A stretch of DNA of 46,587 nt, taken from positions 1 to 46,587 of the IMG/VR virus record IMGVR_UViG_3300025590_000013, one strand, 5' to 3'. The notes beneath the pieces were generated by a model. It worked only from the letters and a program-made list of their open reading frames with translations, had not been told where the DNA came from and did no database searches. The position numbers and the translations under genes were made by a program. The DNA comes from a virus. How positions within the stretch are numbered: position 1 is the first letter of the stretch; each line of letters begins with the position of its first letter. Shown here piece after piece: positions 1,528-40,689 of this stretch.

Positions 1528-1953
1528 ATGGGAAAATATAAAAAAGCAATAGAAATAGCAACAGGACAAAATGCAACTGTAAACAAATTAAAAAATTATA
1601 TATTTGATTTTAAATTTAAAAGTCCTAATAGATATGAAGATGGTAAAAAAATTAGTAAATTAGAAAGTATGTCAACTACTGCAGAAATACAAGCACCTTC
1701 ATTAAAAGAAGCTAAAAAATTATTAAGACAGAATAAAGATTACAAAAGAGATTATGATCGCTTTGAAAAATATGAGTTAAATTATGAAGCTAAACCTAGA
1801 ATATCTTTTAGTAGTATAATAGAAAATGGAAAGGTTATTAAAGAATCTGCACAAAGAAAAGCATTTAATATTTTTAAGGAAAAAAATAAAAAAGAAGGTG
1901 GTAGAATAATGAATGATCCTAATAAAAATTATAATGCACAGAGGACAATATAA
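1528..1953 (+). CDS. Hypothetical protein upstream of portal
   Basis: Not recognised. 141 residues, rich in Lys, Ile and Asn, with a mixed alpha/beta pattern and no membrane segment. A KKEGGRIM motif occurs near the C-terminus, of the same kind as in many small proteins downstream. The start follows an AGAGAGAG purine stretch. The stop TAA overlaps the portal ATG by one base, so translation is probably coupled to the portal. Transcription is probably from P2. Confidence 0.65.
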   Translation: MGKYKKAIEIATGQNATVNKLKNYIFDFKFKSPNRYEDGKKISKLESMSTTAEIQAPSLKEAKKLLRQNKDYKRDYDRFEKYELNYEAKPRISFSSIIENGKVIKESAQRKAFNIFKEKNKKEGGRIMNDPNKNYNAQRTI

Positions 1954-4496
1954 TGGCAACAGAACGAAATCCATTTGAACAAATACCAGAAGAAATTTCT
2001 AACATAATAGATATGCCACAACAAGAAGTAATGGAAGAAGGTCCTGCTTTTTATCCTGAAGAAGATGGTGGTATGACTGTAGACTTTACAGAATCAACAA
2101 TAGAAATGGAAGCTGAAGAATCTATACAAGAATGGTATGGAGATATTACAGATAAACTAGATGATGCTGAACAAGAAGAAGTAGCATCTACTATAGTAGA
2201 TAATTATACATCAGATAAAGAATCTCGCTCTGAGTGGGAAGCTATGTTTGAAAAAGGTTTTGATCTACTAGGATTAAAGATACAAGAAACATCAGAACCA
2301 TTTGAAGGTGCGTGTACAGCAGTTCATCCAATGTTAATAGAATCTGCTGTTAAGTTTCAAGCAAAAGCTATACAAGAATTGTTTCCACCATCAGGTCCAG
2401 TAAAAGCACAGATAGTAGGAAAGTCTACTCCTGAAAGAGAAGACCAATCTAATCGTGTGCAAGACTTTATGAATTATCAAACAACAGAACAGATGCCTGA
2501 ATACTTTGATGAGATGGAAAGAATGTTATTCCATTTACCATTAATAGGATCAGCCTTTAAGAAAGTATACTATGATGCTAATCTTAAAAGACCAGTATCT
2601 GAGTTTGTTCCTATTGATCAGTTCTATGTATCTTACTATGCATCTAATCTACGTAAAGCAGATAGATATACACATGTAATATATAGAAGTCCTGTTGATC
2701 TTGCAAGAGATATACGTACAGGTATCTATAGAGATATAGAGTTACCAGAAGCAACTAATCCAGAACCTACATCTTTTTCTTCTAAAATGGATACTATTAT
2801 TGGTTTGTCTCCAACAGGAACAAATGATCCACAGTATACATTACTAGAACAACATTGTTATTTAGAAATAGAAGAAGACTATGCTCTTCCTTATATTGTT
2901 ACAGTAGAAGAGCAGTCACAACAAATTTTAAGTATTCGTAGAAACTATAAGAAGGATGATAAGAATCAGGAGAAAGTGTCACACTTTGTTCATTATAGAT
3001 TCGTGCCAGGCTTTAGTTTCTATGGATTTGGTCTCATGCACTTCTTAGGAAACTTAACTATGACTGCAACAGCAGCCATGAGAAGTCTAGTGGATGCAGG
3101 TCAATTCGCAAACCTACCAGGAGGATTCAAAGCAAAGGGTGTTAGAATTGTTGGTGACAATGATCCTATCAGTCCAGGTGAGTTTAAAGAAGTTGAAGCA
3201 ACAGGGCAAGATCTTAACAAGGCTATAATCTCTCTCCCTTATAAAGAACCTTCCCAAACATTGTTTAATATGCTTGGCTTCATAACCTCTGCAGGTCAAA
3301 AGTTTGCTGATAGTACAGAACAAATTGTTTCTGATGCATCATCTTATGGACCTGTTGGTACTACTATGGCTTTACTAGAAGCATCAAGTAAGTTCTTCTC
3401 TGCTATTCACAAGAGATTACACAAATCTCAAAGAGATGAATTTAAAATACTTGCACAGATAAATTATGATTATCTTCCTTCTGAGTATCCATATGAAATA
3501 CCTTTTGCAGAGAAGAATATCTTCAAGCAAGATTTTGATGGAAGAGTAGATATTATTCCAGTATCTGATCCTAACATTCCTTCAAATGCACATAGGATGA
3601 TGCTTTCCCAGATGGCTTTACAAATGGCACAGCAATCACCTCCTGGTATGTTCAACCTTGAAGCACTTAATAGAACTATACTAAGTGCTGCTAATCTACC
3701 TAACTTAGAACAAATACTACCACCTAAACAAGAACCACAACAATTAGATCCTGTATCTGATATAATGGCTGCAACTAAAGGTATACCTATTGCAGCATTT
3801 CCAGGACAGAACCATGACTCACATATACAAGTTAAGATGATGTATCTACAAGATCCACAGAATGGTGCTAATCCTATTATGGCTAGATTAAAACCAATAC
3901 TTGAATCTAATATACAAGAACATTCTGTATTAAAATACCAAGAGCAAATGAATGGTATGGCAAGAATGGCAATGGAACAACTACCACCAGAACAACAACA
4001 GAATCCTTCTGTAGCAGAATCAGCTATGGCTGCTGCAGCTCAACAAGTAATGAATGCTAATATGGCTGCAGGTCAAGCAGAGTCACCTGAACAACAAATG
4101 GTTGCATTAGAAACAGCAAAGGTAGAATTAGAGAAACAAAAACTACAAGCTACTATGGCTAAACATTCTGCAGACTCTGCATTAGATGCACAGAAACTAG
4201 AACTAGAAGAAGCTAAGTTAATGGTAGATGCAGGAAAAGAAGGTCAATCTGCTATAATGAAAAAAGAAAAAGGTGATCTTGATAGAGCAAGTAAAGAGAC
4301 AATGAAGTCTTTAGATATAATGGCAAAGGCTGCATTAGCAGATCAGAAAGCTGAAATAGATATGGAAAAAATTCGTATGAGTGCTTTAGAAAAAGTTACT
4401 CAAATGGAGAATCTGGATGATAGACAAAGAAGTTTTAAACTTGTTGATGTCATGTCAGAATTATTAAAAGAAGAAATGAAAGGAGATGATCAATAA
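1953..4496 (+). CDS. Portal protein
   Basis: The portal forms the dodecameric ring at the capsid vertex through which DNA is packaged and ejected. At 847 residues it is in the range of large podovirus portals. Seen: an acidic N-terminal arm, then FEGACTAVHPMLIESAVKFQAKAIQELFP near residues 114-142, a wing region with FYVSYYASNLRKADRYTH, and FSFYGFGLMHFLGNLTMTATAAMRSLVDAG near 350-382, as in marine podovirus portals. From about residue 650 the chain turns into a long Gln/Glu/Lys/Met-rich coiled coil. GAGG at 1941-1944 precedes the ATG. It sits between terminase and scaffold, as expected. Confidence 0.9.
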   Translation: MATERNPFEQIPEEISNIIDMPQQEVMEEGPAFYPEEDGGMTVDFTESTIEMEAEESIQEWYGDITDKLDDAEQEEVASTIVDNYTSDKESRSEWEAMFEKGFDLLGLKIQETSEPFEGACTAVHPMLIESAVKFQAKAIQELFPPSGPVKAQIVGKSTPEREDQSNRVQDFMNYQTTEQMPEYFDEMERMLFHLPLIGSAFKKVYYDANLKRPVSEFVPIDQFYVSYYASNLRKADRYTHVIYRSPVDLARDIRTGIYRDIELPEATNPEPTSFSSKMDTIIGLSPTGTNDPQYTLLEQHCYLEIEEDYALPYIVTVEEQSQQILSIRRNYKKDDKNQEKVSHFVHYRFVPGFSFYGFGLMHFLGNLTMTATAAMRSLVDAGQFANLPGGFKAKGVRIVGDNDPISPGEFKEVEATGQDLNKAIISLPYKEPSQTLFNMLGFITSAGQKFADSTEQIVSDASSYGPVGTTMALLEASSKFFSAIHKRLHKSQRDEFKILAQINYDYLPSEYPYEIPFAEKNIFKQDFDGRVDIIPVSDPNIPSNAHRMMLSQMALQMAQQSPPGMFNLEALNRTILSAANLPNLEQILPPKQEPQQLDPVSDIMAATKGIPIAAFPGQNHDSHIQVKMMYLQDPQNGANPIMARLKPILESNIQEHSVLKYQEQMNGMARMAMEQLPPEQQQNPSVAESAMAAAAQQVMNANMAAGQAESPEQQMVALETAKVELEKQKLQATMAKHSADSALDAQKLELEEAKLMVDAGKEGQSAIMKKEKGDLDRASKETMKSLDIMAKAALADQKAEIDMEKIRMSALEKVTQMENLDDRQRSFKLVDVMSELLKEEMKGDDQ

Positions 4497-4708
4497 TGCC
4501 AATAGGAAATAAAGCATATCCTGTTAAGAAAGGTGTTACTAATGGTTATCCTGAACATGTGAAAAATGGTGATGGTGGCATGTATGGCGACTTTACTAAA
4601 AGATCAGATGATGATGGAGCTGTAGGTATGACACCACAACAAGGTGTGCTAAATCAATATGATCCATTTAGCTGGAAATATCCAGCACCAACTAAAGGGA
4701 GAAGATAA
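4496..4708 (+). CDS. Small hypothetical protein after portal
   Basis: 70 residues, not recognised. Gly- and Asp-rich middle (KNGDGGMYGDF, DDDGAVGM) and a basic C-terminus ending PTKGRR. Its ATG overlaps the portal stop by one base, so it is probably translated by coupling. Position suggests a small structural or accessory protein, but nothing in the sequence proves it. Confidence 0.6.
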   Translation: MPIGNKAYPVKKGVTNGYPEHVKNGDGGMYGDFTKRSDDDGAVGMTPQQGVLNQYDPFSWKYPAPTKGRR

Positions 4709-4709
4709 C

Positions 4710-4784
4710 ATGTGGAAATCACCAGTCGTAAAAGAAGTATCTGTAGGACTAGAGATTAACTGCTATGCATGTGCAGAGATTTAA
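4710..4784 (+). CDS. pqqA: PqqA-like precursor peptide (24 residues)
   Basis: A 24-residue peptide reading MWKSPVVKEVSVGLEINCY then ACAEI. It has the whole PqqA pattern: Trp near the start, a Pro three residues on, an E-x-S-V-G segment, and then G-L-E-I-N-C-Y, in which Glu15 and Tyr19 are spaced E-x3-Y like the two residues joined to form pyrroloquinoline quinone. It fits methylotroph PqqA, including the A-E-I tail. GGGAGAAG at 4697-4704 precedes the ATG at a normal distance, and the gene starts one base after the previous stop. No pqqB, C, D or E gene is in the window, so the peptide would need host enzymes. It could instead feed another Glu-Tyr crosslinking RiPP pathway. Confidence 0.8.
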   Translation: MWKSPVVKEVSVGLEINCYACAEI

Positions 4785-4793
4785 TTTCTGAGT

Positions 4794-4988
4794 ATGGATA
4801 TATGGGATGAGGTTGTTAAAGAATATGATAATGAACTCACTAAACTAAGATTAACTGTCTCTAGTGGGCAAGCAGAAGACTTTGCTCACTATAGGCAACT
4901 CGTAGGACTTATTCAAGGAATTGAATGGTCTCGTAATAATTTAAAAAGCATAATACAAAAACGTATGTATGATGAAGAGGATGACTAA
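4794..4988 (+). CDS. Small conserved phage protein, helical
   Basis: 64 residues, predicted to be mostly helical, with the stretch SGQAEDFAHYRQLVGLIQGI in the middle and an acidic end. Proteins of this look occur beside structural genes in marine phages, but I know no function. The stop overlaps the ATG of the GroES-like gene by one base (TAATG), so the two are probably co-translated. The ribosome site is weak (GAG only). Confidence 0.65.
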   Translation: MDIWDEVVKEYDNELTKLRLTVSSGQAEDFAHYRQLVGLIQGIEWSRNNLKSIIQKRMYDEEDD

Positions 4989-5407
4989 TGCAACAGGCAC
5001 ATTTAGGTAACACTATAAAGAATGACATATGGATAACAGATGAAGAATATTTAGATACTCCAGATGTCCTCCCTGAACTTCCAGGTTTTCATGTACTCGT
5101 AAGACCTGTCTCAGTAAAAGAAAAAACTAAAGGTGGTATATTAATACCAAACTCAACAAAAGAAGATATGTCTTATTTAACAACTGTAGGAAAAGTTATT
5201 AAAATAGGTAATCTTGCTTATAATGATACAGATAAATTTCCTAAAGGACCTTGGTGTAAAGAAGGAGATTACATCTGTTACGCAAAACATGCTGGTCAAA
5301 AGATACAATATAAAGAAGTTAAAATGCTTTTATTGTATGATGATCAAGTAATAATGAAAGTAGAAGATCCTAAACATTTAGATCCTACATTTAATTTAAG
5401 TCACTAA
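4988..5407 (+). CDS. groES: GroES-like co-chaperonin (Cpn10)
   Basis: A 139-residue Cpn10-type protein that would cap the host GroEL ring and help fold capsid proteins, as T4 gp31 does. Seen: LPGFHVLVRPVSVKEKTKGGILIPNS near residues 31-56, which is the first strand and the mobile loop with the GGILIP signature, then TVGKVIKIG, a GDYICYAKHAGQKI segment and VIMKVEDP at the end, the usual Cpn10 order. An N-terminal extension of about 28 residues and an insert with FPKGPWCKEG set it apart from cellular GroES (about 97 residues). GAGGA lies upstream. Its place between portal and capsid fits a folding role for head proteins. Confidence 0.85.
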   Translation: MQQAHLGNTIKNDIWITDEEYLDTPDVLPELPGFHVLVRPVSVKEKTKGGILIPNSTKEDMSYLTTVGKVIKIGNLAYNDTDKFPKGPWCKEGDYICYAKHAGQKIQYKEVKMLLLYDDQVIMKVEDPKHLDPTFNLSH

Positions 5408-5408
5408 G

Positions 5409-5437
5409 TTGCACTATAAATTTTTATAGTGTATAAT
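5409..5437 (+). promoter_or_regulatory. Sigma70-type promoter P3
   Basis: TTGCAC at 5409-5414 and TATAAT at 5432-5437 have a 17-nt spacer. It lies in the gap before the scaffold gene and would drive scaffold and capsid genes. The spacer is almost entirely a perfect palindrome (5412-5431). Confidence 0.7.
5412..5431. promoter_or_regulatory. Perfect 20-nt inverted repeat filling the P3 spacer
   Basis: CACTATAAA and TTTATAGTG are perfect 9-bp arms around a TT centre. They start inside the -35 box and end directly before the -10 box. This is where a repressor or activator would act. It has no following T-run of terminator type. Confidence 0.5.
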
Positions 5438-5489
5438 AATAGAATATACAACGTAAGTCGTATGTCTCGTAAACAACGAAGGATGAATA

Positions 5490-6473
5490 ATGGACAATGA
5501 AGAGTGGAATGAAGTTGATACAACAACTCCAGAAGAAGAAAAGAATAAAGTAGAATATGAAGTAGAAGGAGAAATAGAACAAGAAGAAAAAGCTATTCCT
5601 CTAGTACAAGCTGAAAAAGAAAAAGAAGAACCTAAAGTAGATGCACCACCAGAGCTTGAAGGTGTAGAAACTAAAGGAGCACAGAAAAGAATAAGGCAAT
5701 TAGTTAAGCAACGTAAAGAAAGAGATGATCAACTTGCTCAACTAATACAACAAAATGAACAACTTAATAGTAGATTACAGAATACAGAACATCAGTTTAA
5801 TACTGTAAATCAATTAAGTTTAAATGCAAGTGAAAAACAAATAACAGATAAGTTAGAACTTGCAAGAAATGCTTATAAGACTGCTCACGAAGAGGGTGAT
5901 TCAACTAAGATATTACAAGCTCAAGAGTTTTTAAATGAAGCACAAAATGATTTAAAATCTTTAAGTGCTACAAAACAACAATTTGAACAAAAACCTGTAC
6001 AACAACAACAAGCTGTACAACAACCACAGTATCAACCTCAACCTACTGCAGATCCAAAAGCAGAAGATTGGGCAAGTAAAAATGAATGGTTTGGTTCAGA
6101 TCAAGTTATGACTGCAGCATCTTTAGCAATAGATGCACAGTTAAGAGAAGAAGGTTATAGTCCTGCAGATCAAGAGTATTATAATGAAGTAGATCGTAGG
6201 ATAAAAGAAACATTTCCTCATAAGTTTGCAGCAGAAGCTGCTCCAGTTGAGGAAGTTCGTAGGCAGGGAAATGCGTCACAACCTGCTCAAGTAGTCGCTG
6301 GAGCATCTCGCAGCTCTCCAGGTTCTAGTAAGAAAGTTAAACTGTCTAAAGAAGATATTAGACTAGCTAACAAATGGAACGTACCACTTGAACAGTATGC
6401 TCAAGAAAAACTAAAGGCTGATAGAGCTGATGGTGAGTATACAACAATTAATATGCAGCGTGGAGGAAAATAA
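5490..6473 (+). CDS. Head scaffolding protein (probable)
   Basis: 327 residues, very acidic and Glu/Lys-rich at the start, then a long coiled coil (about residues 60-165), a Gln/Pro-rich spacer, and a basic C-terminal part rich in Lys and Ser (SSPGSSKKVKLSKEDIRLANKW). This composition and the position just before the capsid proteins fit a scaffold that guides procapsid assembly through a basic C-terminal end. No sequence signature is decisive. GAAGGATGA precedes the ATG. Confidence 0.7.
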   Translation: MDNEEWNEVDTTTPEEEKNKVEYEVEGEIEQEEKAIPLVQAEKEKEEPKVDAPPELEGVETKGAQKRIRQLVKQRKERDDQLAQLIQQNEQLNSRLQNTEHQFNTVNQLSLNASEKQITDKLELARNAYKTAHEEGDSTKILQAQEFLNEAQNDLKSLSATKQQFEQKPVQQQQAVQQPQYQPQPTADPKAEDWASKNEWFGSDQVMTAASLAIDAQLREEGYSPADQEYYNEVDRRIKETFPHKFAAEAAPVEEVRRQGNASQPAQVVAGASRSSPGSSKKVKLSKEDIRLANKWNVPLEQYAQEKLKADRADGEYTTINMQRGGK

Positions 6474-27690: not shown

Positions 27691-30600
27691 ATGGCTATAA
27701 GTATTAACTCACAAGACTTTCGTGAAACAGCTCAAGAATTAGATGCTCTTGCTGCTCAGAAGTTATTGGATGAAGAAAAATATAATCAAATACTAACAGC
27801 TAAAGGTTTTGATAAGAATGAGTTTAAAGAAGCATACATAGAATATGCTGATACTCCTCCAGAAGAGTTAGATGAACAAGCTCAAATAACAAATATTCCT
27901 GTTGTTGATCCTATTATACGTACAGTAGGTAGAGCAGTTGGTGAAGCAGGAAGAGGTATTGCAGATACTACAGAAGATTTCTTTCCTGAGTTTAAAGCTA
28001 AAGTAGGCAGTTTTTTAAATACTGCAGGTGATTATGTTCCTGAAGTTGTTAAAGAATATTCTGATCAAATCTTTAATCCTTATCATGGTGATGGTGTGTA
28101 TGGTAAAGCTGAAGAGATGGTTGGAAATATAGGTTCATATTTTATACCTGCTACTGGTATAATAAAAGGAGCAAGACTTGTTGGAGGTGTAACAAGAAAT
28201 GCTAAGTTAATTAATTCTTCAGCTAGAGCAGCAAAAATTAATCAAGCTATTAAAACAAATAAAGTTTTAACTAATGCTACAAAGATTAAAGGTAAGTATG
28301 GTAGGATAGCTACAGTTGCTAAAAATTTAGCACTCTATGGTACAGCTTTTGCTGCAAGTGCTACAATAGTAGAAGACCCACAAGAGAATGCTGTTAATTT
28401 TTTATTAGAAAAGTTTCCTGAATCAACTTTAGCTTTAGAAAGTTTAGCTATTAATCCTAATGATACAGCAGCTCAACAAAGAGTACAAGCTTTTATAAAT
28501 AATATGGGATTAGAAGTAACTTTTTTTGGAGGATTAAAAGGATTATCATTAACTTATAAAGGTATAAAAGCAGGTACTAAAAAAGTAATACCTACACAAT
28601 TAAATAAACTTTTAACAGCTACTACTTCAAGAAGAGGAATGACAGATGATGTTTTAGCTAACTTTGTAAAGTATAATGCTGTAGCAAAAAATGCTTATGA
28701 TACTGCTGTGGTAGAAAGTAGAGAGTTATCTAAATTAATGAAGAAAGATAAATTTGATTCTGTTGAAAACATTGCTGTAGTTAATGAAGCATTGGCTGGA
28801 AATAAATCAGCTCTAGCTCAACTGCCTTCTCTTGTTAAGCCTAAAGTTATAGGTATGAGAAAAGAAATTGATGACTTATCTGGATATTTTTTAAAAGAAA
28901 ATAGAACATCAGGTGGTTTAAAAGTTACTATACAAGATAATTTAAAAACATATATTACACGTACTTTTGAGATGTTTGAAAATCCTTCTTATATTAGAGA
29001 AATGAAAAGTGTTCTTAAAAAAAATCGTAAGAATATATCTAACAATCAATTAGATCGTATATCTAATATAGGTATGAGAGATATATCTGATTATTTAATT
29101 AACACAATGAATCTTACACCTGCACAAGCAGCAGAAAATATAAATCAAGCATTAAAAAATTATCAAAAAGGTCCAGATGGTATTGGTTCTTTCTTATCTG
29201 ACTTAGCAGGAACAGCATCAAGTAAAACAGGTTCTACTACAAAAGGATTTTTTAAAAGAAAAAAATTAGATGAAAAAGTTAAATCATTTTTAGGAGAAGT
29301 TAAAGATCCTAATCTTAATTATGTTAATGCTTATCAAAAGTTAGCTGTATATAAAGCAGAAGTAGATTTTTTAGAAACACTTGCTAAAGATATGATAGAT
29401 AGTGGAGCAGCTAAAGAGTCTATAAAAAAAGGAAAGCAAATGTTTGCTCCTGAAGATGTAGGAAAGTTTGAATTAGCAAATGATGTTGCTCAAGAAAGAT
29501 TGGCTAAAATTTTTGGTAAAGGTCCTATTAATAAAGGTTCAATAAAAAATCCTTTAGAAGGATTATATATAGATCCTAATTATAAACAAGCTTTAAAAGA
29601 TGGGTTACAAGCTATTAATCCTACAGAAAGTAGTGCAATGAGGTCATGGCTTGCTTTAAAAACAACTTCTCAATTAGGTTTAACTGCATTAAATCCAGCT
29701 ACACATGCTGTTAATGTATTTGGTAATAATATATTTATGGCTGCTAATGGATTTATTCCTGGTACAAGAGGTGCAGTAAATGCTGCTACATTTGTTGGTT
29801 CTAAACTATCTGGTTTAACTACTAAAAATCTTACACAAAAATGGAATAGATATAGGGAATTAGGTATTACAGGTAGTGATGTTTTAACAGAAACTATTAG
29901 AGCTAACATAAAACAAATGTCACGTGGTATTAATATGTATGATAAACCTTCAGTAGCTAGAAAACTTTTAACTTCTCCTTATAAAGTTACAAAAAAAACA
30001 TTAGGTAAAGTTATAGATACATATCAACTTGAAGATGATATATATAAAATAATGCATTTTGAAAACACAATAAAGTATTTATCAAAAGCTTTTCCAGAAA
30101 GATCTTTAATTGAGATTGAAGAAATGGCAGCAAAAAGAACAAGAGATTTAATGCCTAATTATTTAATTGCTCCTAAGTTTTTAAAAAAATTAAGGAATAA
30201 ACCTATAGGAGATTTTGCTACATTTGCTGCTGAGTCTACAAGAGTCGCTAAAAATCTAGTTGCTTATACAGTTGAAGATGCACTTAGTGGTAATCCTGAA
30301 TTAATGTCTTTAGCTGCTAGGCGTTTAGGTGGAATGACTATTGCAGGTTTAGGTGCAGATGTACTACAAGCAAAGTCTCAAGTTATGATGGGCATATCAG
30401 ATGATGAAAAGGAAGCTTCTTATATAGTAGGACCTTCTTTTAATTATAATGTTCCTCAATTTTATTTAAGTGGTGTAGAAGATTATAAAGGTAAAAAGGT
30501 TATAAGAAGTGTTTCATCAGGCAGTTTAGATCCATTTAGTTTTATTAAATCAGCAGCTAGGTTTACTCATAAAATATTAAATGATGATGAGATGTCATTA

Positions 30601-34782: not shown

Positions 34783-35427
34783 TTAATCTCCTTTGATACA
34801 TGTCCCTATTATACCTTCTTTTGATGTACAAGTCAAGTATATTTTTAAATCTTTGTACTCTTTCCATATACCTTTCATTTTATTTACCCACCATTTATTA
34901 TCAAATAAAGAAACATGTACATTCTCTCCCTTATATTTACCTGTAGTAAATGTTTTTAAAGCAGGTTCACAAGATATGTTTATAAAGACTGTTGAACTAG
35001 ATAGACTAAATATCTCTCGTATTATCCAATCTAAATCTTCTTCAGGTATATGTTCTAACACATCAGTACATATTACCATGTCATGTTTTTTAGTAGGTAG
35101 CTTATCATGTTCTGGTACACCTGGATCATATAAGAATAAATCTTCTATACCCCACCATAAATGTAAAGGTTTATCAAAGTTAGGTATCTTTCCTTTATGA
35201 TTAAGATTTTTGTATTGTTCTTTGTAAGGATACCCTTTGCCACAACCATAATCTAAAATAGATTTACATTTATTATATTGTATAATGCCATATATATCTA
35301 TAGCAAAAGGTATTAAACTTATACCTTGAAACTTAGCATCATCTTCATGTAAATGTTTATAAGCTTCTATTAATTCTAAATACTTTTCAGAAGGTTTAGG
35401 TTTTGTAGGTAATACATAGTTATCCAT
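34783..35427 (-). CDS. Class I SAM-dependent methyltransferase
   Basis: 214 residues from the ATG at 35427 with GAGGAA 9 nt before it (a TTG at 35442 is in frame but less likely). Motif I is SILDYGCGKGYP at 57-67, motif II an MVICTDVLEHIPEEDL stretch near 130, and FINISCEPA follows. Methyltransf_11/23-type. The substrate cannot be read from sequence; the two neighbours upstream suggest a sugar or surface target. The 3' end holds promoter P6. Confidence 0.8.
   Translation of the reverse strand: MDNYVLPTKPKPSEKYLELIEAYKHLHEDDAKFQGISLIPFAIDIYGIIQYNKCKSILDYGCGKGYPYKEQYKNLNHKGKIPNFDKPLHLWWGIEDLFLYDPGVPEHDKLPTKKHDMVICTDVLEHIPEEDLDWIIREIFSLSSSTVFINISCEPALKTFTTGKYKGENVHVSLFDNKWWVNKMKGIWKEYKDLKIYLTCTSKEGIIGTCIKGD
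34808..34836 (-). promoter_or_regulatory. Sigma70-type promoter P6, inside methyltransferase gene
   Basis: On the - strand TTGACT (34836-34831) and TATAAT (34813-34808) with a 17-nt spacer, near consensus. It lies in the last codons of the methyltransferase and about 30 nt before the holin start, so it can drive the holin to terminase-small-subunit operon. Confidence 0.7.
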
Positions 35428-37747
35428 TAAATGTTTCCTCAAATGTTTTTGGTTTAGGTTGTAAATTCCATAGAGCAGCTACCAATGTACCTTTACCATA
35501 GAAATTTAAATTCATTTCCATAGGTGGATTAGCAAATGTTCTTTCACAGTCTTGTGCCATAGCAAGAAGTTCTCCTGTAGTCCAATACTGTGTATCTCCT
35601 ATACCTACTTTAAAATATTTAGGTTTAGGTTCTTCATCTTCAGCACCTGTAGTTTCTTTCTGTTGTTCTTTAGTAGGTTCTTCCATGCTACAATCAAATC
35701 CAAACAAGTCAAAGTGTCTGAATCCCATAGTATGAAAGATACCTAAAGCTCTCATAGCAGCACATGTACCACCTGTAATAAGAGTAGCACCTTGAGGTAT
35801 ACCTATAGCAGGATTAAGAGTAACAGAATTATTATGTACTGCTTTCTTCTGTTCTTCTGGATCACGTAATGATTCTGTAAATGCATGCCATCCATGTATT
35901 TCTGCACCTTTAGATATTAAATGTTCAGTAACAGAAGGATCAGTCATGGAAGCTACAAAGAATTTAGTTTTCTTTTCTACCTTTTTAAATAAATCTTTTC
36001 TTACTACACCATGTGTACTTGTACCTGTAATAGGTCTAGGGTCTAGTACAATACATGCCCAAGGAAGTATACCATTATTAATAAGTGTAGGATAAGAATG
36101 TTTAACACATACAATTTTACTATCAGGATTATTTTTTATATGTGCTTTTAATTTAGGTATATTTAAATAAGGACCACCTGATACAAGTGTAACATTACCT
36201 TGATGCATAGGAAATTTACCTAGCCAAGTCTTTATAAGTTTTAAATTAGTTCTAATGTTATCCCTAATAAAATCTTTAGGTACACAATCTCTAGGATGTA
36301 CTACAATAGGAACACTTAATAAACCTTTAGGTATATCTTGTAATTTTTTATCAGTAAGTATAACAGTAAGATGTGTAAAACCACCACCTCTTACTTTATC
36401 TTGAGAAGGTAATACCCATCTACGTACTCCATCTTTTTTTCCTTTAGGTAAACTATCAAAAATTTTATTTGTTCCTTGGTATTGTTCAGGAGCATTTATT
36501 TTTTCTTCATCTTCTCTAAAGAAATTATCAATAACAATAATAGGATTATGTTTTAAATTATCATAGTCACTTCTTGTAGTAGCTATACTATTACCACCAC
36601 CTATTAAAACAAGATCAGCATCTAAATCTGTACGATCTTTTAGTATATCTTTTGAGTTACCTTTCCCTAACTCAAATGTAAAGACTTTCTTTTTCTCCAT
36701 CATCCTAGCCCTGAAGTCTTGTAATCTTTTTATAACAGCACTCTGAGTATTGTGTGCTTTAAGATTAAATTCTTCTGAATCTGTTTCTAAAGTACCATCT
36801 TCAAATAAATCAAACCCTCTATACAATAGTTCATCTTGACTTTCAAAAGCAGCAAGAGCCATTTCAATAGCACGACCACCATTCCATGTCCCTACTTCTA
36901 TTATAGACTTAGGTTTATATTCTCTAATAACATCAGCTAATTGTTTATATCTTGTAGGCATAATGTCTTGAGATGTTTTATCTTCTGATAAAGCAACTAA
37001 TCTATTACCATCATTATCTCTAATAGGATTAAGACTTATATTTTCTATACCTTGAAAGTGTGTAATGTAATCTTTAATTTGTTCAACAGATTCTATATGC
37101 ATACCATGAGCTTTATAAATATTTAAAAGCCTTTCCATTAAGAAAGAGTCATGCCATTCTCTGTACTGTAGTAGTTCTCCTGAGTTATAAGCACCACGTA
37201 AGTCACCAAGTAAATCAAGAGCAGGTTTCTTATTTAAATTAAAAGCCATGAAAGATGTATCAAGATACCTAGAACCATCAGGATAATCTCTTACACCTGA
37301 ATAAGCTATATCACAATCATCATTTAACATATTAAGTATGTCTTCAGGTACTAATCTTTTTTGACACATAGAATCAGCATCAATCCATATCAACCAACCT
37401 GCATCTTTAGATTCTTCTGCTAATTCAAAAGCTTTCTCAGTCAAAGCAAATACTTTATTGCACCATTTAGTAGCATCTAATTTCCAGTTGTAAGGAATTT
37501 GTCCTTTCTCTGTACCATCATGTGTTATATTTACTTCTTTAAATAGTTTATAATCTTCTATCTTTTCTAATTTTCTAAAAGATACTGAGTTATTTTCTAG
37601 TATAGAATAGTTTTTTAAATCTAAATTATGATAGTAACATGTTACATTTATATCAGGTTTCCAATTATCTTTAATTGATTTAAGTAAATGATGTCCTGCA
37701 ATTTTATAAATATCTTCATTAAAAGAAGTAACAAAATTTATCTTCAT
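35420..37747 (-). CDS. Three-domain protein: glycosyltransferase, methyltransferase, DUF115-like
   Basis: 775 residues. Domain 1 (about 1-240): glycosyltransferase-like, with WIDADSM at 121-127 (D-x-D metal/nucleotide site) and YLDTSFMAFN behind it. Domain 2 (about 275-410): SAM methyltransferase, IIEVGTWNGG at 282-291 and GFDLFED at 311-317. Domain 3 (about 518-745): resembles DUF115/MAF-type, with LVSGGPYLNIPKLKAHI, CVKHSYPTLINNGILPWACIVLDPRP. Such fusions are not usual in cellular enzymes and suggest one chain that adds and methylates a sugar. The ends overlap the neighbouring genes by 4 and 8 nt. Confidence 0.7.
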   Translation of the reverse strand: MKINFVTSFNEDIYKIAGHHLLKSIKDNWKPDINVTCYYHNLDLKNYSILENNSVSFRKLEKIEDYKLFKEVNITHDGTEKGQIPYNWKLDATKWCNKVFALTEKAFELAEESKDAGWLIWIDADSMCQKRLVPEDILNMLNDDCDIAYSGVRDYPDGSRYLDTSFMAFNLNKKPALDLLGDLRGAYNSGELLQYREWHDSFLMERLLNIYKAHGMHIESVEQIKDYITHFQGIENISLNPIRDNDGNRLVALSEDKTSQDIMPTRYKQLADVIREYKPKSIIEVGTWNGGRAIEMALAAFESQDELLYRGFDLFEDGTLETDSEEFNLKAHNTQSAVIKRLQDFRARMMEKKKVFTFELGKGNSKDILKDRTDLDADLVLIGGGNSIATTRSDYDNLKHNPIIVIDNFFREDEEKINAPEQYQGTNKIFDSLPKGKKDGVRRWVLPSQDKVRGGGFTHLTVILTDKKLQDIPKGLLSVPIVVHPRDCVPKDFIRDNIRTNLKLIKTWLGKFPMHQGNVTLVSGGPYLNIPKLKAHIKNNPDSKIVCVKHSYPTLINNGILPWACIVLDPRPITGTSTHGVVRKDLFKKVEKKTKFFVASMTDPSVTEHLISKGAEIHGWHAFTESLRDPEEQKKAVHNNSVTLNPAIGIPQGATLITGGTCAAMRALGIFHTMGFRHFDLFGFDCSMEEPTKEQQKETTGAEDEEPKPKYFKVGIGDTQYWTTGELLAMAQDCERTFANPPMEMNLNFYGKGTLVAALWNLQPKPKTFEETFNG

Positions 37748-38605: not shown

Positions 38606-38752
38606 TTATAATCTACCTACTCTATGGTGAAGAGATAATAACTTCTCTTCTACTTCTTTATTAGGAGGTGAAGCATATTTTAAATAATAAGCTATCACCT
38701 TTCTAATTAATTCAACATCAGCAGTAGCTATTGCAGGTTTACTTTCTTTCAT
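38606..38752 (-). CDS. Small helical protein after RNR, 48 residues
   Basis: The frame starts MKESKPAIATADVELIRKVI and ends LLSLHHRVGRL. Its ATG overlaps the RNR stop (TAATG), and it fills the gap before promoter P5. Soluble, helical, no recognised family. Probably translated by coupling. Confidence 0.7.
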   Translation of the reverse strand: MKESKPAIATADVELIRKVIAYYLKYASPPNKEVEEKLLSLHHRVGRL

Positions 38753-40689
38753 TATATATCCACCAACTCACATACCCCTGCAGTACATGCAAGTTCTTGT
38801 GATCCTTTCGTGTTATCTTCTTTTTCAAAGTCTTTTAACTTAGCCCAGTTAATACTAGAAGGCATAGCTTTTACTAACTCTTTATAAGTTTTCTCATCTA
38901 TATCTTGATAAGGTGCTTGTTGATATGTATGGTCAGAGAAAGGTAAGAAAGATACACCACTTAGATACTCAAAGTTTTCCCAACACCATGCACCTACTGG
39001 AACCCACTCTTCTTCCTTAACACTAATAGTTACAGAAGGTTTATGTTCACACCAATGCTTGGCATATGTTTTCCATATCTCTAACTGTTCTATAGCTGTC
39101 ATGTCTGTCCTACATACTGAACCTGAAGGAGCTTTCATAGGAAAAGAGAATACAGTAGTATGTTCTGTCTTCATTACATCAGGCTCATTAGGTATACCAC
39201 ATGACTTCATAAACTCAGTCAATGGGTCTTTGTTATCACCTCTTACTGTTCTAATGTAATAAGGATTATGTCTAGCATGTATACCACTAGCACTATCAAC
39301 TAACTGACTCACAGTACCTGAAGGTTTAACACAAGTAATAGCTGTTGATTGATTGATGTTAAACTTCTCAGCATATTCTTTGTTACACTCTACTGCTACC
39401 TTTTTAAGTTTCTCTAATGTCTTAGCAAGTCCTGTTTCTCTGCCATTAAGTAATTCAGAATCCATAATACCAGTAAGAGATACACCAAGTAATCTTTCTT
39501 CCTCTGTATTATCTTGCCATACTTTTCTTAGGTAGCCAAAGTTAGTAAAGGTAGATTGTATAGTACCTAGTAAGGTAGCTACTTTAATCTTTCTTGTAAG
39601 AGTATTAATAGTATCTCCAGCACGTACTACTATCTCTGTAAGGTTACAAAACTGATTAGGTCTAAGGATAATTTCACTACAAGGATTAGTACCAAAGTCC
39701 CAGTTAGATTCTCTTCTACCATTCTCAGCAGCTTTCTTTTGAGCAGATGCTCTACTAAAGATACCTCTCTCACCTGACTTACTTTCATACAAGGACAACC
39801 ATTCCTTCATGAAGATACCTGGATCAGGTTTCTCTGTATAAGCAACAGAGTTATTAGCTAAAGCTCTCTCTGGATTAGTTGACCACCACTCACCTGTCTT
39901 AGCTGTACGTATACGTTGGTCTGATAAGTTAGATAAAGATATAAGAGCTGACCTACGTACTCCACCTACAACTACAACCTCACCTGTCTTACATACTATG
40001 TCATGACATTCCATAGAGGAAAGTTTTCTACCTCTTGATTCTTTAAACTTAGTAATAGTAAAGTCAAACAAATCTACCAAAGGTTGAGGACCACTAGCTC
40101 TACCACCAAATGTTTTAAGTCTAGCACCTGCAGGTCTAACCTTAGATACATTTATCTTAGGTACTCTACCTGTGTATAGGTAAGCTATCAAATCTCTATA
40201 GGCTCTTGCCCATCCATCTTTAGAATCAGTAACAGAAACAACACTATCTATGTACTCAAACTCTACATCAGGTACAGTAGGTAGCTTGTCAGCATACTGT
40301 CTCTCAACAGAGAAGCCTACACCAGTACCATTCATAAGAATATATAACACCTCATCAAATGCTCTTGGGCTATCAATAGGAATATAAGAACAGTTATAAC
40401 CTGATACATGTTCTCTATCTAATGCTTTACCTGCAGTCATAAGAGCTCTCATGCTTGGCATAACTTCAAGAGATAAAATAGATTCTTCTATTTCATTCCA
40501 CTCTTTATCTGTAACTCCTCCTTCATAGTTAGTATCTATATGATCCTTAAAGAAAGACACAAGTCTTCCTACTGTTTCACTCCATGTTTCTCTTCTACCT
40601 TCTTCTTCTATCCATCTAGAATACCTAGACATGTGAATGAATGATTGGTACTCAGTAGGTAAATAATTACTACCCATTAATGATGCCAT
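38752..40689 (-). CDS. nrdJ: Class II (B12-dependent) ribonucleotide reductase
   Basis: 645 residues, of the short monomeric adenosylcobalamin type that makes deoxynucleotides without oxygen or a second subunit. Seen: Cys100 (GYNCSYIP), GVRRSALISLS, NPCSEI with Cys337 (thiyl radical) and Glu339, Cys348 in QFCNLTEI (redox partner of Cys100), and the C-terminal C-x4-C pair in CTAGVCELVDI that takes electrons from the reductant. The start ATG has AAGGAA upstream and follows directly on the previous stop. The host must supply B12. Confidence 0.92.
   Translation of the reverse strand: MASLMGSNYLPTEYQSFIHMSRYSRWIEEEGRRETWSETVGRLVSFFKDHIDTNYEGGVTDKEWNEIEESILSLEVMPSMRALMTAGKALDREHVSGYNCSYIPIDSPRAFDEVLYILMNGTGVGFSVERQYADKLPTVPDVEFEYIDSVVSVTDSKDGWARAYRDLIAYLYTGRVPKINVSKVRPAGARLKTFGGRASGPQPLVDLFDFTITKFKESRGRKLSSMECHDIVCKTGEVVVVGGVRRSALISLSNLSDQRIRTAKTGEWWSTNPERALANNSVAYTEKPDPGIFMKEWLSLYESKSGERGIFSRASAQKKAAENGRRESNWDFGTNPCSEIILRPNQFCNLTEIVVRAGDTINTLTRKIKVATLLGTIQSTFTNFGYLRKVWQDNTEEERLLGVSLTGIMDSELLNGRETGLAKTLEKLKKVAVECNKEYAEKFNINQSTAITCVKPSGTVSQLVDSASGIHARHNPYYIRTVRGDNKDPLTEFMKSCGIPNEPDVMKTEHTTVFSFPMKAPSGSVCRTDMTAIEQLEIWKTYAKHWCEHKPSVTISVKEEEWVPVGAWCWENFEYLSGVSFLPFSDHTYQQAPYQDIDEKTYKELVKAMPSSINWAKLKDFEKEDNTKGSQELACTAGVCELVDI

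Follow-up and report, generated by a model that had tools for sequence, protein, structure and literature searches.

The window analysed here, meaning the whole 46,587-nucleotide stretch of IMG/VR virus record IMGVR_UViG_3300025590_000013, carries a short gene among phage head genes, in the order portal, 70-aa open reading frame (ORF), pqqA, 64-aa ORF and GroES. The features of this region are as follows:

1953-4496, plus strand: portal (head-to-tail connecting) protein of 847 aa, the anchor for finding relatives
4496-4708, plus strand: 70-aa ORF, function not assigned; its stop codon ends 1 nt upstream of the pqqA start
4695-4701, plus strand: Shine-Dalgarno sequence AAGGGAG of pqqA, retained in relatives
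4710-4784, plus strand: pqqA, encoding the 24-aa pyrroloquinoline quinone (PQQ) precursor peptide MWKSPVVKEVSVGLEINCYACAEI, identified by a TIGR02107 score above cut-off, the same site in relatives, and selection
4752-4754, plus strand: Glu15 codon (GAG) of pqqA
4764-4766, plus strand: Tyr19 codon (TAT) of pqqA
4794-4988, plus strand: 64-aa ORF, function not assigned; in L031, a relative without pqqA, it comes directly behind the 70-aa ORF
4988-5407, plus strand: co-chaperonin GroES, with a Cpn10 match

The pqqA frame is intact over 24 codons (75 bp), from the ATG at 4710 to the TAA at 4782-4784, and the ribosome site is as clean as originally described, with AAGGGAG 8 nt before the ATG. The original prediction had also set the gene between the portal and co-chaperonin genes; it does lie in that interval, but it adjoins neither of them directly because the 70-aa and 64-aa ORFs intervene.

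The peptide has the canonical PqqA spacing (Trp2, Pro5, Glu9, Gly13, Glu15 and Tyr19), in which Glu15 and Tyr19 are the residue pair crosslinked by PqqE in characterised PqqA. This layout was the core of the original prediction, and it is borne out by the NCBI equivalog PqqA model TIGR02107, which scores the window peptide at 27.3 bits (E 2.4e-6; cut-off 20) and the gene at 24.9 bits in a genome-mode search. The Pfam part of the proposed profile check did not hold up as well, as PF08042 gives 20.2 bits (E 6.4e-4), 0.9 bit short of its gathering score of 21.1; membership in PqqA was decided by the equivalog model, with Pfam marginally below threshold. Within the window the DNA pattern of the key residues has a single occurrence, and 100 dinucleotide shuffles gave none. 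No PqqA family matching the peptide was found in PHROGs, and no chain matching the 24-mer in the PDB. Judged on its sequence, 4710-4784 is a true pqqA gene, encoding PqqA. As predicted, no other pqq gene accompanies it, homologues of pqqB, pqqC, pqqD and pqqE being absent from the whole window. A promoter scan of 4300-5500 gave a result below chance, and the window yielded no tRNA genes for host linking.

Conservation and selection of pqqA among viral relatives

To place the gene among related phages, a portal search of IMG/VR was used, which found 80 relatives. The peptide follows the 70-aa ORF in 33 of the 35 loci with a portal identity of at least 83% and enough downstream sequence (some of these contigs are near-duplicates), so that close relatives do keep the gene. 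In three of these 33, L002, L035 and L042, extra DNA separates it from the 70-aa ORF. The close relative L031 lacks pqqA and has the 64-aa ORF directly after the 70-aa ORF, forming an empty site, while L034 lacks pqqA at the site and has other DNA in its place. Among the portal-search loci at 66-71% identity only L080 has pqqA near the portal gene, most of the clade at this identity lacking it there; L149, L190, L196 and L126, which were found through the peptide, add further cases at portal identities of 66-77%. When the search was relaxed so that neither Glu15 nor Tyr19 was demanded, no degenerate versions of pqqA turned up in the portal relatives. A different ORF, starting MANxTFxGPxR, lies between the portal gene and the 64-aa ORF in L034, L080, L149, L126 and L190, with or without pqqA. 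Since the interval also takes up this ORF, it appears to be a variable insertion spot.

Two scans of viral contigs, in which the other residues were fixed and codons 15 and 19 were left free, returned at least 154 alpha-type and at least 120 methylophage-type (beta) matches. Glu15 and Tyr19 are present in every one of the 274 matches listed, in agreement with the expectation that the E-x3-Y pair would be kept in related phages. It should be noted that the number of distinct DNA sequences among the matches listed (101 alpha-type and 109 beta-type) is a safer count than 154, because the latter counts loci that the portal search had also found, and certain extracts overlap within one record. No homologues of pqqB, C, D or E were found in the 274 viral loci listed, which amount to 2.2 Mb. 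Similar pqqA genes, mostly unannotated, occur in hundreds of aquatic phage sequences.

On disjoint nearest pairs of the matches listed, pN/pS is 0.17 for the alpha type and 0.095 for the methylophage type, far from neutral although partly lowered by the residues fixed in the search pattern. In the portal-anchored set, whose loci were picked regardless of the peptide, pN/pS is 0.21. The probability attached to purifying selection (P ~1e-42) is approximate, given the incomplete independence of the pairs and the fixing of some residues by the search. Taken together, the comparisons indicate that pqqA in the phage clade of the window is under purifying selection, with a pN/pS of about 0.2. It is a host-type metabolic gene retained under selection in phage genomes, as expected of an auxiliary metabolic gene.

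Candidate hosts and other phages with pqqA

The closest bacterial PqqA, an orphan copy with the sequence MWKSPVVKEVAVGLEINCYACAEI, belongs to the metagenome-assembled genomes (MAGs) L206 and L217 (MarineAlpha9_Bin3) and is identical to the phage peptide at 23 of 24 positions; between the pqqA genes of L217 and the phage there are eight synonymous changes and one non-synonymous change. Genomes of this type share one bacterial family with MAG TMED109, and 25 of the 28 genomes in the family have this PqqA. The GC content is also low on both sides (0.33 in the window, 0.31 at the host locus of L206). From the PqqA similarity and the low GC, the host is probably a marine alphaproteobacterium of the TMED109/MarineAlpha9 type, a label used because the matching genomes all fall in one family with MAG TMED109. 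AEGEAN-169/HIMB59 was set aside as host, as the matching genomes group with MAG TMED109; a paper on the AEGEAN-169/HIMB59 clade does not give the names of these genomes.

The pqqB-E genes that the phage lacks are present in these candidate hosts. PqqE scores above cut-off in 17 of 18 candidate host genomes, and most candidates also encode PQQ alcohol dehydrogenases, so that candidate hosts carry both pqqA-E and PQQ enzymes. The best of these dehydrogenases are nearest to the structures of quinoprotein ethanol dehydrogenase (6zcv/6zcw) and XoxF, and contain the Asp-Tyr-Asp motif that marks lanthanide enzymes. Candidate host genomes G001 and G004 contain a pqqABCDE operon, whose peptide begins MWKSPVVREVAVGL, along with a second, orphan pqqA that adjoins a LysR-type regulator and a transporter; Lys8 is common to the phage peptide and the orphan host PqqA. 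An orphan pqqA beside a LysR-type regulator, apart from the pqqABCDE operon and in several cases with transporter genes, is also seen in L206, L213, L217, L207, L272 and L293, and this arrangement is retained across marine alphaproteobacteria.

Six cultured methylotroph phages carry the beta type, a second type of PqqA. In INPHARED the beta-type peptide was found in P19250A, Venkman, MEP301, MEP401, MEP402 and four Melnitz records, the hosts of which all belong to the Methylophilales/Methylophilaceae, and in one spring-water phage. Positions of pqqA in these genomes are:

P19250A: KX815270.1, 28085-28153, full frame
Venkman: MT375522.1, 9977-10045
MEP301: MW452941.1, 3316-3384
MEP401: OP830906.1, 41902-41970
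MEP402: OP830907.1, 43050-43118
Melnitz-1: MZ577095.1, 74888-74953

The gene is unannotated in most of these phages. In every copy inspected the frame is complete and a ribosome-site-like sequence is present; a hypothetical protein on the opposite strand overlaps pqqA in Melnitz-1 and the spring phage. Some methylophage copies lie near recombination genes, and the Melnitz copy has a tRNA and a baseplate gene as neighbours. As the peptide itself was the query behind this list, the presence of pqqA in all methylophages does not follow from it alone. The OM43 phages named as known in the MEP401/402 paper (Venkman, MEP301 and Melnitz) are all among the carriers. Neither tblastn with the exact window peptide nor a search with an alphaproteobacterial PqqA consensus gave matches in INPHARED, for which the methylophage-type peptide was needed.

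A third phage PqqA type, MWSKPIITEISVGLEINSYACAEK, is nearest (87%) to the PqqA of alphaproteobacterial genomes of 1.4 Mb. Distant phages, with portals 36-38% identical to that of the window, have beta- or third-type pqqA genes at other distances from the portal gene, placements that suggest pqqA was acquired more than once, each time in keeping with the host type. Matches in Acinetobacter phage MD-2021a were rejected, since the pqqA of CAKLQF020000010.1 has pqqB, C and D next door and looks bacterial. That record contains ppk, pqqB, pqqC, pqqD and a radical SAM gene, and resembles a chromosome filed as phage; CAKLQH020000055.1 is a 13-kb record likewise named Acinetobacter phage MD-2021a.

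Proposed role of phage pqqA

The established biochemistry of PqqE, PqqD, PqqB and PqqC is that PqqA is consumed, one peptide being spent for each PQQ. We consider it likely that phage pqqA is an auxiliary metabolic gene that resupplies this consumed precursor, with PqqB-E of the host completing the synthesis. The phage would make PqqA together with its head genes, after which host PqqD and PqqE would bind the peptide and crosslink Glu15 to Tyr19, and a host protease, PqqB and PqqC would complete PQQ. PqqA would be exhausted first, as it is the only pathway component that is consumed while the enzymes persist. Hence, if the phage shuts down host transcription, PQQ synthesis could stop first through a shortage of PqqA, which a 75-bp gene would cure. 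This assumes that the supply of PqqA limits PQQ in infected cells. With extra PQQ, the PQQ-dependent alcohol dehydrogenases of the periplasm, which are probably of the lanthanide type, would stay charged and go on passing electrons to respiration while infection proceeds. In a methylotroph, extra copies of pqqA are expressed as PQQ synthesis rises, and cell extract converts purified PqqA to PQQ (PMC9851590). Those copies resemble the window gene in that a lone pqqA off the operon raises the dose of precursor, but they are chromosomal and the window copy is viral.

Among the alternatives, the phage peptide might be modified into another Glu-Tyr product, or it might stay unmodified and inhibit PqqD/PqqE or serve them as a decoy. 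A lone PqqA without partner genes would suit a competitor, and a marine PqqA family has been reported as co-expressed with defence systems (PMC11118758). A decoy, however, has no need of both crosslink residues, which are constant in the 274 matches listed, and the near identity of the phage peptide to host copies (23 of 24 positions), together with the lack of any phage modifying enzyme, favours PQQ supply; we therefore regard this alternative as improbable. Slightly less plausible still is a block on superinfection, in which excess PQQ made from phage PqqA would close a PqqU-type TonB-dependent transporter that serves rival phages as receptor. In E. coli, PQQ does block infection by a PqqU-targeting phage, PQQ-bound PqqU being closed (PMC12124388), and two Klebsiella phages also require pqqU (PMC13412088); yet the hosts considered here already produce PQQ, and unrelated pqqA-carrying phages would all need to compete via one receptor. 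That the ORF does nothing for the phage, being chance-carried host DNA or a remnant, as its 75-bp length and the empty site in L031 might suggest, deserves hardly any credence in the face of strong purifying selection, a conserved ribosome site and separate placements of pqqA in unrelated phages.

Resupply of PqqA has a parallel in auxiliary genes of the cyanophage psbA type, by which the phage replaces the component with the fastest turnover and keeps host energy metabolism running. Both would uphold host energy metabolism, but psbA encodes a protein subunit, whereas PqqA is a substrate peptide consumed for a cofactor. If the proposal is true, viruses would uphold host energy metabolism through a substrate, not an enzyme. 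The window peptide resembles known PqqA (TIGR02107, PF08042) in length, residue layout, profile score and near identity to host PqqA, and the gene differs from its bacterial counterparts in sitting among phage head genes without pqqB-E.

Phage PqqA is already known, as the original prediction had noted. For the Lake Baikal methylotroph phage population VP_266, it was proposed that phage PqqA boosts PQQ for methanol dehydrogenase (PMC7678222), and phage PqqA has also been named in reservoir (sediment) viruses (PMC13188868). VP_266 is a T4-like freshwater phage assigned to Methylophilaceae that encodes methanol dehydrogenase too (PMC7678222), whereas the window phage has a podovirus-type portal, probably a marine alphaproteobacterial host, and pqqA alone. 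According to the Lake Baikal paper, P19250A has none of the genes listed there (PMC7678222), which is contradicted by the full PqqA frame at 28085-28153 of the P19250A record. Text searches of the MEP301, MEP401/402, Venkman and Melnitz papers gave no mention of phage PqqA, and no report of PqqA in marine alphaproteobacterial phages or cultured methylophages was found in the open-access PMC literature, to which the breadth described here is new.

On balance we lean towards a broader view, in which phages of PQQ-dependent hosts carry a gene for this consumed precursor peptide in general. Unrelated phages (podovirus-type, siphophage and T4-like) would have recruited it several times, matching the PqqA type of the host each time, and it would be near-universal in methylotroph phages and overlooked at 23-24 codons. 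Genes of that length usually go uncalled, which is why gene lists of methylotroph phages miss pqqA. Abundant bacteria of oceans and lakes rely on PQQ alcohol dehydrogenases to oxidise methanol and other alcohols, and if pqqA is widespread in phages, infection may sustain this oxidation. Hosts are in culture for phages such as Venkman, MEP301, MEP401/402, Melnitz and P19250A, which makes the idea directly testable.

Elsewhere in the window, Pfam identifies a B12-dependent (class II) ribonucleotide reductase at 38752-40689 on the minus strand. By eye, one segment (HGTN...GVLFTS) of a 334-aa ORF at 429-1433 looks similar to ADP-ribosyltransferases; this ORF has no Pfam match. The 775-aa protein encoded at 35420-37747 on the minus strand combines an MptE-like domain with an N-terminal part that looks glycosyltransferase-like by eye, and its gene is adjoined by a methyltransferase-like gene at 34783-35442.
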